A model generated the notes under the pieces. That model had not been told where the DNA came from. It saw only the letters and a list, made by a program, of their open reading frames with translations, and searched no databases. Positions 10,204 to 16,777 of a stretch of 64,000 nucleotides of DNA are shown here, piece by piece. This DNA comes from Capsulimonas corticalis (GTDB lineage Bacteria; Armatimonadota; Armatimonadia; Armatimonadales; Capsulimonadaceae): the NCBI RefSeq assembly GCF_003574315.2, contig NZ_AP025739.1, positions 5,270,001 to 5,334,000 of the forward strand, read 5' to 3'. Positions within the stretch are counted from its first letter, which is position 1; each line of letters begins with the position of its first letter. The position numbers were made by a program, and so were the translations under genes.

Positions 10204-11523
10204 ATGGAGATATTGACGTTGACTGTCTCGGAACAAAGAACCATCGATCTGCTTACTCGGCTGGCAGCTCACCAGATTACCGTGGAGCGAGCCGCAGAAC
10301 TTCTTGGGCTCTCCTCTCGTCAGGTCCGGCGTAAGCTCAAACGCTTTCTGGCCGAGGGAGTAAATGCGATCCCGCACGGCAATCGCCGCCGAAAACCACA
10401 CAATATCCTCGACCCAGACACGCGGACACGGATCCTTGCTCTCACCAGCACCGGCGGACCCTACCATGGGTTCAATGTTTGCCACACGCGCGACTTGCTG
10501 GCCGCCAGCGATGACATCCAGATCGGGCGTTCCACCTTGCACAAGCTTCTTCACCCAAAGCTCCCCCAGAGGTTAAGGAAGCGAAACCTGCGCGAGGCGT
10601 GGTGCGTCGCCGACGCTTGCGCAAAGCCGCCTCGGGCATGATGGTGCAGATTGATGGTTCTCCACACGATTGGCTCGAAGGACGCGGGCCTCGCCTGTGC
10701 TTAATGGGTGCGATCGATGACGCCGACAACCATGTCCTGCATGCCCATTTATGTCCTGCATGCCCATTTTCGTCCGAACGAAGATGCTGCTGGTTATCTC
10801 TGGATGTTCCGAGCGATTGCCATCGAGTATGGCCTGCCCGCCAGCTACTACCATGACAAACACACCATCTTGAGATCACCCAAAAAGGCCACGATCGAGG
10901 ACGAACTGGCCGGACAGATCCCCATGAGCCATGTCCAGAAAGTACTCCATGACCTGGGCGTAGAGAGCATCGCCGCCCATTCCCCGCAAGCCAAAGGGCG
11001 GATCGAGCGGCTCTGGAGCACCTTTCAAGACCGGCTCGTCAAAGAAATGCGTTTGGCGGGTATCTCGACGATGGAGCAGGCGAATGCATTTTTGCCTGCG
11101 TTCATCGCTAAGCATAATGCTCAGTTCGGCATCGAAGCGGCCGATCCCCACTCGGCGTTCATTGTGTTAGAACCCGATTTTGATCTGGACTACTATTTCA
11201 GCATGCAGGAAACGCGCACCGTCAAGGCGGACCACACGCTGAGTTTTGAGGGCAAAGTCTACCAGATTACCGCTGCCTCACGAAGCCGCTCGCTAGCAGG
11301 TCAAAAAGTCAGTGTCCGAGTAAATCCCGAAGGCCAGCTTCACCTCTACGATGGGAAGAAGCGGCTCGATTATCGCCTTGCGTCCGCCGCGTCAGCGAAG
11401 GCAAAGCCCGAACAATCCTCACCCAAGCCTCCGAGGTCTCAGCTCGAAACACCGAAATCTCAGCCCTGCGATCCAGCCGCCGCTGTTAGAAAAAGGGCCT
11501 GGCTTCATGCGGTGGCTCCCTAG
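10204..11523 (+). pseudogene. DDE transposase, ISNCY/IS1202-like, two frameshifts
   Basis: Three pieces of one transposase are spread over two frames. 10204 to about 10560 encodes an N-terminal helix-turn-helix (AAELLGLSSRQVRRKLKRF). About 10560-10750 encodes MVQIDGSPHDWLEGRGP with the first catalytic Asp. About 10750-11523 encodes YHDKH (second Asp), AKGRIERLW (catalytic Glu) and DRLVKEMRLAGISTMEQ. The second break is caused by an exact 19-base tandem duplication (about 10732-10769). Deleting one copy restores DNHVLHAHFRPNEDAAGY in one frame. The first break is a single missing base near a run of C at 10562-10566. The element should be unable to move itself. Confidence 0.88.
10732..10769 (+). 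repeat. 19-base perfect tandem duplication inside the transposase
   Basis: The unit ATGTCCTGCATGCCCATTT occurs twice in direct succession. Nineteen is not a multiple of three, so it shifts the frame. Removing one unit rejoins the two halves of the transposase without loss. Confidence 0.9.
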
Positions 11524-11699: not shown

Positions 11700-13196
11700 C
11701 TAATTGACGACAACGTCGTCTACGTTGGCCCACTGGTTCGCGGAGGATTTGTTATAGAACGAAACCTCCAGAGTTCCGCTCGTGACATTCACCGTGGTGG
11801 AGATCTTCGTCCACGTATTCGTCGTGGGGAAGTTGACCGAGGTGATGCTGCTGCCTCCGTTGTAGTATCGCACCAGCATCTGGCAGGCGGTCTGGCCGCC
11901 GGAGCTTCTCACCCAGGCGCTGACGGTGTGCGAGCCATTGGGAACCGTGACTTGCTGGTACAGGGTCAGCTCGTAAGCGCTGGAAGACCAGGTCGTAAAT
12001 CCGTACGTTCCCGTGTGCGCATCGCCGGCGTAATTGGAGGCATAGCCGGCCGAGCCGTTGCTGCCGACCCACATATTCCAGTTGTTCAGGTTGCCGGTTT
12101 CAAATCCGGAGTTCGCCAGATAGTTCGTGGAGACGGGGTTGCCGCCGTTCGTGAAGAGCGACAGATATTTGGCCTTCGACTGCGGGAACTCGGATACGGT
12201 GGATCCATTGGAGCCGGGCCACAGGTCATGATCGCCATCCGAGGCGTAAACGTCAAAGTAGCACTCGATCGCGATATTGTTCGCCTTGAACCAATTGTAC
12301 ATGTTCTGAATGAACGAGGGATCGTCGCCGCCCGCCGGGCGGCTTTCGTTGACGCCCCAAACGCCCCATTCCGGAATGATGAGCGGAATTCCGGTGGACT
12401 GGGACAGGCCCGTGTAGTAGCTCAGGCCATAGTTGTCCTGATAATCCGTCCAGGCCGACGCCTGCTGCGCGGCGGTCGGCTGGTAGGTGGAGCTGGACGT
12501 ATTGGCGTACTCGTTTTGCGAGCCGTTGCCGCCATGCGGATAATCGTCGTAGACGTCATCCCCGATATAATCGACATATTGCGAGCTAAGGCCGTTCCAG
12601 TCCTGATCCGTCGCCTGCTGTCCCCATCCGTTGCTGGGATTCCAGCAGACTTTGTAGGAAGTGCCGTGGGCGGAATTGTAGGCGTGAACCGTATTTGCCG
12701 CCTGCTGGAAGGCCGGGACCCAGTGCGACTGATCCTGCGCGGCGTTCCAGACCGTATAGCCCAGGTTCATCTCCCAGCCGATGCGAAGAATGGCGCGGGT
12801 GAGGCCGGCGGCCTGCATATTCGAGCACATGGTGGTGAAATGGCTGTTGTAAGCGCCGGTCGCGCCCGCCGCCAGGGTCGATCCATCGCTGGGAATGAGC
12901 GGAACGCCCAGCAGAAGATTGCCGCTGGGGTTGTTCTTTTCCCAGGTCCCCCAAGGGCCGTACAGCCACTGCGAGTTTTCGATATCCCCCCAGTTGGAGT
13001 GCGGCTCGAAGTCCTCGCCCCAAACTCCCGTGCTGCCAAGCCACGTCTGATATTGCGGCAGCTGGTTGACGCCATAGGGAGCGGGGCCCGTGTAGACCGC
13101 TTCCTGAAACGCCGCCGCCGGCCGCTGCGCGGCGAGGCCGGCCGCAATTACCAATAACGTGGCGGACGCCGCCGCCACTTTTTGCAGTCTGTTCAT
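11700..13196 (-). CDS. Secreted GH26-like glycosidase with C-terminal carbohydrate-binding module
   Basis: A 498-residue protein. The ATG at 13196 is chosen because AAAGGAG precedes it and it starts a signal peptide (MNRLQKVAAASATLLVIAAG); the open frame extends 38 codons further upstream. The catalytic domain has AILRIGWEMNLGY (candidate acid/base Glu), YKVCWNPSNGW, YVDYIGDDVYDDYP and PLIIPEWGVWG (candidate nucleophile Glu), the order seen in clan GH-A and closest to GH26 endo-mannanases. The last about 140 residues (NSGFETGNLNNWNMWVG to NVDDVVVN) form a jelly-roll-type binding module nearly identical in design to that of the neighbouring gene. It probably acts on mannan or a related hemicellulose. 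The 116 bases between its stop and the insertion sequence hold nothing recognised. Confidence 0.8.
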   Translation of the reverse strand: MNRLQKVAAASATLLVIAAGLAAQRPAAAFQEAVYTGPAPYGVNQLPQYQTWLGSTGVWGEDFEPHSNWGDIENSQWLYGPWGTWEKNNPSGNLLLGVPLIPSDGSTLAAGATGAYNSHFTTMCSNMQAAGLTRAILRIGWEMNLGYTVWNAAQDQSHWVPAFQQAANTVHAYNSAHGTSYKVCWNPSNGWGQQATDQDWNGLSSQYVDYIGDDVYDDYPHGGNGSQNEYANTSSSTYQPTAAQQASAWTDYQDNYGLSYYTGLSQSTGIPLIIPEWGVWGVNESRPAGGDDPSFIQNMYNWFKANNIAIECYFDVYASDGDHDLWPGSNGSTVSEFPQSKAKYLSLFTNGGNPVSTNYLANSGFETGNLNNWNMWVGSNGSAGYASNYAGDAHTGTYGFTTWSSSAYELTLYQQVTVPNGSHTVSAWVRSSGGQTACQMLVRYYNGGSSITSVNFPTTNTWTKISTTVNVTSGTLEVSFYNKSSANQWANVDDVVVN

Positions 13197-13245
13197 CGTT
13201 ACTCCTTTGTTTTCCGTGTCGCGTATCACCGAGTTGTTTGAAGAA

Positions 13246-13274
13246 GCCATCCGGGGCATGCGGTCCCGGATGGC
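13246..13274 (-). terminator. Hairpin downstream of the second GH26-like gene
   Basis: A 10-bp perfect stem (GCCATCCGGG/CCCGGATGGC) with a 9-base loop lies between two minus-strand genes. The run of T that follows is weak (TTCTTC), so it may be an attenuator or only partly efficient. Confidence 0.55.
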
Positions 13275-13293
13275 AACCGTCGATCTGAGAAAG

Positions 13294-15132
13294 CTAATTG
13301 ACGACGACATCGTCGAGGTTCAGCCACTGATTGCCGCTAGCGTGACTATAGAAGGAGACCTCCAGAGTTCCAGTGGTGACATTCACCGTGGTGGAGATCT
13401 TTATCCAGGCGCTCGCCGCCGGGATATTGACGGTTACCGGAGAGCCGCCGTGGTATTGGACGATCATCTGGCACGCGGCTTGGCCTCCGCTGTTCTTAAC
13501 CCAGGCGCTAATGGTGTGCGAACCGTTCGGCACAGTCACCTGCTGGTACAGCGTCAGTTCGTAGGGACTGGTCGACCAGTTTGTGTAGCCCCACGATCCG
13601 GTGCGGGCGTCGCCGGTATAGTTGGACGCATACGCCGCCCCGCTATTGCCGCCAACCCACATGTTCCAGCCGCTGAGATTGCCGGCTTCAAACCCGGGGT
13701 TGACGAGATAGTTCGCGGGGACGACCGGGGTCGCGTTAACTTCGGAGGAATACGCGCTCGCGCCCTTCGAGTTGACGCCCTTGATCTTGTAGTAATAGCG
13801 GGTTCCGTTCGTCAGCCCCGTGTTCACATAGGAAGTTGCGGTGACGCCGGTCGCGATCGCGGTGGCGGATTCGCCGCCCGCCGTCGTTCCCCGATAGATG
13901 TTGTAGCTGGTCGCGCCGCCGGTGAAGTCCCAGGAGAGAGACACCTGGCCCGAGGCGGCCGTCGCACTCAGACCGGCGGGAACGGGCGGAACGGATGTAA
14001 AGCCGGCGTCGCCGAAGAGCTGCTTGTAAAGCGCGGCGGATTTTGGGAAGGTGGTGGCGCCGAAGATCCCGGATAGGCTGCTGTTGCCGTCCGCGGGCGC
14101 CTCAAAGTAGCACTCTGCGGCGACGTGATTATTCGGGTCCGACATCCAGTTGTACATTCGCTGGAGATACGAGGTGTTGTCGCCGCCGCTCGGATGGCTG
14201 CCGTCGTTGAGCTGCCACAGGCCCCATTCGCCGATTACCATCGGCTTGCCGTGAGTGCGGGCGAGATCGGCGAACACATTGATTCGCGGAAGCTCCGAAT
14301 TGAACCACGCGGAGTCGCGCTGGGCCTGAGTCGGCTGCGTGGTTCCCACGGGATACACTCCGCCGTACGCATAGTCGTATGTATCGATGCCGATATAATC
14401 GACATAGGCGTCGCCGGGATAGAAGTTCGGCGCCCATACCTGGACGTTGCCGTCGGTGGGATTCCAGCAGAACTTGATGAGGTGATTGGGATCGTTGGCG
14501 CGCATCGTGTTCACGATATTTCGCCACGCCGCGATGTAATTGTTGGGCATATTCGACATGACGTTGAGATTGCCGAATGGATTCCAGCCGCCGTCGAACT
14601 CATAGCCAAGGCGAACGATCACTTTCTTAAAGCCGAGGGAGTTGACTTCCTGAGCGTAATTGGCGAAATAGGACATGATCGTCGGATCATTGTTCGCTTC
14701 CGCCTGCCACGTCGCGTCTTCCCAGGCCAGTTTTTGGTTCCAGGAATCGTTGCCGTTGGGATCGGCCGGCATCTGCCCCATTCCCAGAATGACCGTCGGA
14801 AGATTCGCGCCGTATCGCTGCTGCATCGTGGACCAGGGGCTGTTCCAATTGACATGCTGGCAGCAGTCGTACCAGTCGCCCGGTCCCCACCCCGGATCCG
14901 CCTCGGCGCCAAGGTTCGCCACGCCGAGCCACGAACGATACGATCCCCAGTTGCCGGTTCCCTGGCCCGCCGGCCCGTTCAGATTCAGGTCATAGGCCTG
15001 GTTGTAGAGATAAACCGACTGCTCGAAGCTTGTCGCGGCGGCGGCCGGCTTCGACGCCGGCAAGAGCGCGGCGATGCCCAGCGCACACGCCGCCATGGAT
15101 TTTGTCCATCGTCGTAACATCATAGTGTCCAT
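13294..15132 (-). CDS. Secreted GH26-like glycosidase with fibronectin type III and binding module
   Basis: A 612-residue paralogue of the previous gene. The ATG at 15132 follows AAGGGAAG and starts a signal peptide ending near KPAAAATS; the longer frame is rejected. The catalytic domain shows VIVRLGYEFDGGWNPFG (acid/base Glu), IKFCWNPTDGN, YVDYIGIDTYDYAYG and PMVIGEWGLWQ (nucleophile Glu). A fibronectin type III domain (about VPAGLSATAASGQVSLSW to EVNATP) links to a C-terminal module like that of its neighbour (NPGFEAGNLSGWNMW to NLDDVVVN). An extracellular endo-acting hemicellulase is likely. Its promoter lies at 15342-15370, inside the end of the GH140 gene, with a palindromic operator just downstream. 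Confidence 0.8.
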   Translation of the reverse strand: MDTMMLRRWTKSMAACALGIAALLPASKPAAAATSFEQSVYLYNQAYDLNLNGPAGQGTGNWGSYRSWLGVANLGAEADPGWGPGDWYDCCQHVNWNSPWSTMQQRYGANLPTVILGMGQMPADPNGNDSWNQKLAWEDATWQAEANNDPTIMSYFANYAQEVNSLGFKKVIVRLGYEFDGGWNPFGNLNVMSNMPNNYIAAWRNIVNTMRANDPNHLIKFCWNPTDGNVQVWAPNFYPGDAYVDYIGIDTYDYAYGGVYPVGTTQPTQAQRDSAWFNSELPRINVFADLARTHGKPMVIGEWGLWQLNDGSHPSGGDNTSYLQRMYNWMSDPNNHVAAECYFEAPADGNSSLSGIFGATTFPKSAALYKQLFGDAGFTSVPPVPAGLSATAASGQVSLSWDFTGGATSYNIYRGTTAGGESATAIATGVTATSYVNTGLTNGTRYYYKIKGVNSKGASAYSSEVNATPVVPANYLVNPGFEAGNLSGWNMWVGGNSGAAYASNYTGDARTGSWGYTNWSTSPYELTLYQQVTVPNGSHTISAWVKNSGGQAACQMIVQYHGGSPVTVNIPAASAWIKISTTVNVTTGTLEVSFYSHASGNQWLNLDDVVVN

Positions 15133-15312: not shown

Positions 15313-15370
15313 ACAAGGTAGACATGTCTACTTGACGAGCAATTATCTCACAGGCCCCTGGATTTGTCAA
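15313..15370 (-). promoter_or_regulatory. Promoter and palindromic operator of the second GH26-like gene
   Basis: On the minus strand TTGACA (15370-15365), a 17-base spacer and GATAAT (15347-15342) form a near-consensus promoter. About 10 bases past the expected start lies the 14-base perfect palindrome GTAGACATGTCTAC (15318-15331), extended with one bulge to 15313-15334. The TGA in the -35 box is the stop codon of the upstream GH140 gene. The spacer and flanks are nearly the same as in the GH140 promoter at 16716-16777. Confidence 0.8.
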
Positions 15371-16683
15371 GCGGTCAAAATTTCAGCAGGCGATCCGGGC
15401 GCCGGAAAGCCGCAGCTCTCGTCGTCAATCACGAGCACCCAGTCGTTTCCCGGTCCCGAGGACGGCGGTGTGAACTCCGTCAGGTTTTGACGCGGAACAA
15501 CCCCGCCGAAGCGCGCGGCGCCGGTGCGCGGGTCGAACCAGTGCATCGTCTTCTTCTCTCCCGAGAGACGATCCAGATGGACACGGAACGGACGACCGGA
15601 AGCGCTGTAGATCAGCGCATAGCGTCCATGTGAGTCTTGAGTCGCCTGAATATGGTCGGTTCCGATCGATGCGTCGCTCGCGAGCAAAGACTGCGCGGGA
15701 ATGCGCGTCAAGTAGGGTCGAGATTCCATCAGCGAACGCAGAATCCCCATCTGAACCGCGCCCGGCAGGTGGATCGCCTCGCGCCACGGAGTGCGGGGAT
15801 GGTTGACGGGCGGCTCCCAGGCGGGATTTAAGAACTGCCAGATGTCGTGACAGCCGTAGGTATGCCCGCAGGCGCCGGCGAAGACCGCGCCGTAGGCGGA
15901 TTTACGGACATCGTAATCGTCCAGATAACCGTAGGCGGGGTTGAAGGATGCGACATGATCTTCGTAGCCAGGCTCGCCATCGAGACAGGGCTTGACGGGC
16001 GTGCGGGCGTAGTCCGAGGCAATATCATGGTATGTGGCGCGATCGCGATCATGCCCCGTCTGCCACATATTGAAGTCGAGCCAAGGCTCATCATGCATCC
16101 ACTGCGCGGAACTATGACAGCCTGGAGGGTGAAACGTCCGCAGATGCGCGCCGCCATCGCCTTCGGACAGCCCTTCGGCCATCGCCCGGATCATCTCTTT
16201 GTGCTCGTCGCTGAGAATATGGCGGTCGCCCCCCAGCACCCAGATCAGGTTCGCGTTTCGATAACGGCGTCCCAGCCACTCTCCATAAGCGCGGGCATTG
16301 GCCGGGGTAAAGATCTCGGGACCGGCGCCCCACGCCTTGTTCCACTTGTCGCCCCAGGTCGGCAGCAAGGCGACGGTCAATCCCAATGCATTGGCGCAGG
16401 CGATCAGCCAGTCGGCGTACGCAAAATACTCTTCGTTCGGCCGCAATGGATCGTTGTCGATCAAAGCGATCTGTCCGTAACGGTTGGGCTTGGCGAATCC
16501 ATACTCGACCAGCGCCACCGTCTGAATGACCGTGAACTTCTTCGCGACCCGGTCCTGAAGATAGAACTCGGCTTCCTCGCGGTCCAGCCGGTACAGGATT
16601 TCCCAGGCGGTGTCGGCCAGATAAAAGAACGCCGTCCCGTCGTCATGGACGAGAAATCGTCGGTTGTCGCTGATTTTGAGCAT
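15367..16683 (-). CDS. DUF4038/GH140-like glycosidase, apiosidase type
   Basis: A 438-residue protein without a signal peptide. It opens with MLKISDNRRFLVHDDGTAFFYLADTAWE, the usual start of DUF4038 proteins. YGEWLGRRYRNANLIWVLGGDRH carries the Asp after the tryptophan-leucine strand, and TPVKPCLDGEPGYED carries the second acidic residue. A C-terminal beta-sandwich (about residues 350-438) ends the protein. GH140 members release apiose-containing sugars from rhamnogalacturonan II; other DUF4038 proteins have different specificities, so apiosidase is a guess from family. It has its own promoter with a 30-bp palindrome. The product appears cytoplasmic, so it may act on imported oligosaccharides. 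Confidence 0.78.
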   Translation of the reverse strand: MLKISDNRRFLVHDDGTAFFYLADTAWEILYRLDREEAEFYLQDRVAKKFTVIQTVALVEYGFAKPNRYGQIALIDNDPLRPNEEYFAYADWLIACANALGLTVALLPTWGDKWNKAWGAGPEIFTPANARAYGEWLGRRYRNANLIWVLGGDRHILSDEHKEMIRAMAEGLSEGDGGAHLRTFHPPGCHSSAQWMHDEPWLDFNMWQTGHDRDRATYHDIASDYARTPVKPCLDGEPGYEDHVASFNPAYGYLDDYDVRKSAYGAVFAGACGHTYGCHDIWQFLNPAWEPPVNHPRTPWREAIHLPGAVQMGILRSLMESRPYLTRIPAQSLLASDASIGTDHIQATQDSHGRYALIYSASGRPFRVHLDRLSGEKKTMHWFDPRTGAARFGGVVPRQNLTEFTPPSSGPGNDWVLVIDDESCGFPAPGSPAEILTA

Positions 16684-16715
16684 GGCGCTTCTTACATGAG
16701 GGCTTAATCTTGAAT

Positions 16716-16777
16716 AGCGTCAGGAAGACATGTCTTCCTGACGCTAAGATTATCTCATAGGACCTGACATTTGTCAA
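16716..16777 (-). promoter_or_regulatory. Promoter and 30-bp palindromic operator of the GH140-like gene
   Basis: On the minus strand TTGACA (16777-16772), a 17-base spacer and GATAAT (16754-16749). Immediately downstream, 16716-16745 is a perfect 30-base palindrome centred on AGACATGTCT. Its position near +10 suits a repressor that blocks transcription until an inducing sugar is present. The same core is found in the promoter at 15313-15370. Confidence 0.85.

Follow-up and report, generated by a model that had tools for sequence, protein, structure and literature searches.

In Escherichia coli, the lac operator O1 is centred at about +11, overlaps the transcription start and is bound by LacI. 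A leucine of the hinge helix (Leu56 in LacI, Leu54 in PurR) inserts at the operator centre; this residue is common, but is not required for membership of the LacI family. The regulators of this family act mostly as local regulators of sugar utilisation, 72% of them are autoregulated, and they recognise even palindromes of 16-22 bases (PMC4052901). Among 1251 regulators with even palindromes, 1173 have operators with a central CG pair and 49 have another central pair, making CG typical but not universal (PMC4052901). A small search of the literature brought up no regulon described for the lineage studied here, and searching the literature with the operator motif returned only unrelated papers on eukaryotes. 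The system reported below is most probably a local sugar regulon of the ordinary LacI type; its operator is new, and two paralogs are candidates for its regulator.

The window, by which we mean the whole 64,000-base stretch analysed (C1:5270001-5334000), is part of a single-contig genome of 7,645,051 bases (Table 1). A first-pass annotation had described twin promoters (TTGACAAAT...GATAAT, 17-base spacer), each followed near +10 by a palindrome. Both promoters are present as described, and no other exact match to TTGACA-N17-GATAAT occurs in the window. The palindromes, both formed around AGACATGTCT, are likewise where they were said to be, centred 17 (O2) and 18 (O1) bases past the -10 hexamer, or at about +11; the 14-base perfect palindrome has the length given, while the one reported near 16730 as 30 bases long is slightly longer. 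The annotation judged such a recurrence improbable by chance; AGACATGTCT is found only twice in the window, against an expectation of 0.02. The -35/-10 pair itself is that of an ordinary strong sigma70-type promoter. Many near matches to TTGACA-N17-GATAAT, with few mismatches, are scattered across the genome; the pair is therefore not an informative element, and the promoter string was rejected as the shared signal.

Table 1. Features of the window (window positions) and of the second regulon locus
Feature	Position	Strand	Evidence and remarks
Promoter P1	16749..16777	-	TTGACA-N17-GATAAT, TGA before -10 hexamer; exact pattern match
Operator O1	16715..16746	.	32-base perfect palindrome, core GAAGACATGTCTTC, centre 18 bases beyond -10
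Apiosidase-like enzyme (PF13204 + PF12904), P1 target	15367..16683	-	Pfam 381 bits; PDB 8t9w 'Apiosidase' 455 bits
Promoter P2	15342..15370	-	TTGACA-N17-GATAAT, TGA before -10 hexamer; overlaps apiosidase gene 3' end
Operator O2	15315..15334	.	core GTAGACATGTCTAC, 14 bases perfect at 15318-15331, centre 17 bases beyond -10
GH26-like glycosidase, fn3 + CBM4_9-like domains, P2 target	13294..15132	-	Pfam PF02156 1.5e-8
Second GH26-related glycosidase	11700..13310	-	likely start MNRLQK near 13196
LacI#1	genome 5406110-5407165		LacI family
LacI#2	genome 5409751-5410794		LacI family
Site targets at locus L006			DUF1559 pseudopilin divergent from LacI#1; DUF1559-LacI#2 operon; GH26-GH36 operon

Genome-wide, AGACATGTCT has five copies, at 5285320 and 5286726 (both in the window), 5407356, 5411623 and 5417351. 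All five match GWAGACATGTCTWC, for which base composition predicts about 0.05 occurrences in 7.645 Mb, and the reversed control of GWAGACATGTCTWC has no match in the genome. Each copy lies just downstream of TTGAC[AT]-N17-(GATAAT, TATAAT, TATGAT or TAATAT) and upstream of a glycosidase or LacI-linked operon, which argues against random occurrence of the palindrome across the 7.645 Mb. Further degenerate sites with up to three mismatches were not in excess (368 in the genome vs 374 for the reversed control); since counts at two or three mismatches equal the background, the strong-site set is taken as five. The 20-base consensus, about AAGGWAGACA followed by TGTCTWCCTT, is an even palindrome within the usual 16-22 base range of LacI-family operators. 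Its arms extend 7-16 bases around a single centre, yielding perfect palindromes of 14 to 32 bases, and all five sites share the same central 10 bases. The operator sequence is new for a LacI-type regulon.

The layout of the five promoters is similarly uniform. Palindrome centres lie 17, 18, 22, 23 and 21 bases past the -10 hexamer, which would place them at about +11 to +17, assuming that transcription starts ~7 bases past the -10. The trinucleotide TGA directly precedes the -10 in all five operator promoters, compared to 5/56 of the other promoter-like matches listed, and on this basis the five look like extended -10 promoters.

The three sites outside the window cluster within 10 kb, ~120 kb from the window sites (5.40-5.42 Mb, locus L006). 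The annotation had spoken of two glycosidase genes; glycosidases are indeed among the targets, but the targets are more numerous, comprising a GH140-type apiosidase, at least two GH26-like enzymes, a GH36 alpha-galactosidase and one LacI repressor, so that the sites stand upstream of carbohydrate genes (GH140-type, GH26, GH36) and of a regulator itself (DUF1559-LacI#2 operon). The GH26-like enzyme of the window weakly matches Cellvibrio mannanase structures; we chose to place its start at MDTMMLRRW, giving a leader of ~200 bases after P2. The second GH26-related gene has no Pfam match of its own, is ~32% identical to its upstream neighbour in the catalytic region and 70% identical in the C-terminal domain, and, judging by the spacing, is probably co-transcribed from P2. 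The GH26 enzyme of the GH26-GH36 operon is 47% identical to the window GH26, and no operator copy lies near the other GH26 genes of the genome, outside the regulon loci, when their positions are compared with the five sites. The combination of GH26 with an alpha-galactosidase invites the guess that the substrate is galactomannan, a guess only, because enzymes with other activities also belong to GH26 and the Pfam matches score weakly.

The DUF1559 pseudopilin-like genes of the regulon (L006 5492-6277 and 8808-9590) stand beside the LacI genes, and of the other LacI-like genes checked, about a third likewise have prepilin-like N-termini no more than 1.5 kb away. After the operator, two more strong inverted repeats lie in the leader of the first of the DUF1559 genes (L006 5382-5434; GCGATCA-AGAA-TGATCGC and GCAAAACTATCA...TGATAGTTTTGC), possibly an attenuator or mRNA structure. 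One insertion sequence, encoding a helix-turn-helix and an rve-type transposase, is present in both regulon loci (window 10204-11523, split into two reading frames; L006 9777-11078 and 15467-16546).

The annotation had noted no obvious regulator gene nearby. This is correct for the window but not for the genome, where two LacI paralogs are found ~120 kb away beside three of the operators. In both proteins PF00356 and PF13377 score above the cut-off, and both combine a helix-turn-helix with a periplasmic-binding-protein-like sensor domain. LacI#1 and LacI#2 are 57% identical and have in common the DNA-contact helix GVAPQTVMS, which is absent from the other LacI relatives compared; with the next closest paralog of the genome, which reads GVAPSTVSR, identity falls to 39%. 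LacI#1 and LacI#2 are the best candidate repressors, as their genes stand beside 3/5 sites and LacI#2 belongs to a target operon. The promoter of LacI#1 itself contains a weak version of the operator with three mismatches, GAAGACACATCTCC, between the -35 and -10, a possible weak autoregulatory site. The genome contains a large expansion of LacI-like genes (L043-L072, L111-L130), although some of the matches to the LacI query cover the sensor domain only. Another LacI gene of this genome, at L066, has the hinge leucine and a CG-centred 20-base perfect palindrome, TAACTACAACGTTGTAGTTA, ~170 bases upstream.

We suggest that the palindrome most probably serves as operator for LacI#1, LacI#2 or both, which would repress a small, sugar-induced regulon for sugar degradation. 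A repressor dimer (LacI#1 and/or LacI#2) would sit on the operator at about +1 to +26 and block RNA polymerase at the five sigma70-type promoters. When plant polysaccharide is degraded, one of the sugars set free, which may be a fragment of mannan or galactomannan, would free the repressor from the operator, and the GH140-type apiosidase, the GH26 enzymes, the GH36 alpha-galactosidase, two DUF1559 pseudopilins and LacI#2 itself would be induced. The genome itself shows the sequence of the sites, how many there are, where they lie and what adjoins them; binding of LacI#1 and LacI#2 to them, repression as its effect and the identity of the inducer are what we infer. The earlier proposal of one repressor controlling a small sugar regulon stands in large part: a shared operator controlling such a regulon is well supported by five sites at the same promoter position, with one or both of the two LacI paralogs as putative repressors. 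This provides a concrete, testable candidate regulator-operator pair in this lineage, and the placing of an apiosidase and GH26 enzymes under one predicted control circuit is a clue to a shared substrate.

It is unlikely, in our judgement, that the operator is genuine and shared but bound by a regulator encoded elsewhere (a further LacI paralog, or one of GntR, TetR or MarR type), with the LacI#1 and LacI#2 genes as mere targets. Another protein could own the site because the genome has 92 matches to one LacI query, and an AT centre is unusual for LacI operators (1173/1251 have CG; PMC4052901); against this, three of the five sites are grouped in 10 kb around precisely the two LacI genes that have a distinctive recognition helix in common, and the genes tested next to the sites include no further regulator recognised by Pfam.

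The inverted repeats could also act as RNA, forming hairpins in the 5' leader that stabilise the mRNA or tune translation instead of binding a protein as DNA. While strong hairpins are predicted in three of the leaders (z -3.4, -5.5 and -3.2), the other two fold hardly better than shuffled sequences (z -0.1 and -1.0), and the central 10 bases stay constant at every site as the length of the perfect palindrome varies, a pattern expected of sequence recognition, not structure. With only 3/5 leaders folding well, this reading was rejected as very improbable. It is likewise very improbable that a promoter segment, mobile or recently duplicated, gave rise to the sites as copies with no shared regulator. 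Over 66 bases P1 and P2 share 76% identity, and two of the promoters at the sites outside the window have insertion-sequence copies immediately upstream, but the flanks beyond promoter and operator cannot be aligned, except for insertion-sequence ends and pseudopilin coding starts, and the operators of the GH26 paralogs are of different subtypes (GTAGAC and GAAGAC).

In the relatives searched, neither the motif nor a close LacI ortholog turned up, which fits a lineage-specific pair. Across 290 further genomes of the phylum the 14-base motif has no match, and relatives of LacI#2 above ~38% identity were found neither in 60 relatives nor in the species collection. Phylogenetic footprinting, which normally serves as independent confirmation, is therefore not possible, and the observation amounts to co-absence only, since motif and ortholog were not seen together in any second genome.

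Two features of the proposed LacI-operator pair depart from the family pattern. The central pair is AT in 5/5 sites in place of CG, and the hinge-helix leucine is replaced by Ala in LacI#1 and Thr in LacI#2. This leucine is missing from 23/67 distinct LacI-type DNA-binding domains of this genome and six relatives. Upstream palindromes were CG-centred for 7/10 regulators with the leucine vs 1/6 without it (repeat rows merged, divergent L058 pair merged), a difference that is not significant (Fisher two-sided ~0.12, computed by hand), and we regard the tendency as a lead. It may be, although we hold this quite tentatively, that LacI#1 and LacI#2 belong to a set of repressors within an expanded family that lack the hinge leucine and recognise operators without a central CG by a changed mode. 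The AT centre and the leucine loss together represent a small, testable departure from the usual rule of LacI recognition.

Both LacI#1 and LacI#2 match the solved complexes of CcpA with cre and PurR with the pur box over their full length, and differ from CcpA in the hinge, where CcpA has the leucine. Like E. coli lac O1, the window operators are centred at about +11 and overlap the predicted transcription start, such that a block of RNA polymerase would be expected; unlike lac O1, they have a different sequence, form a symmetric even palindrome, and no auxiliary operators were found. Also close are the local sugar-utilisation regulons of the LacI family (Ravcheev et al. 2014, PMC4052901), which similarly combine a ~20-base even palindromic operator, a few glycosidase operons and a regulator in its own regulon, whereas the regulon described here has an AT instead of a CG centre, two paralogous regulators, loci ~120 kb apart and DUF1559 pseudopilins among its targets.
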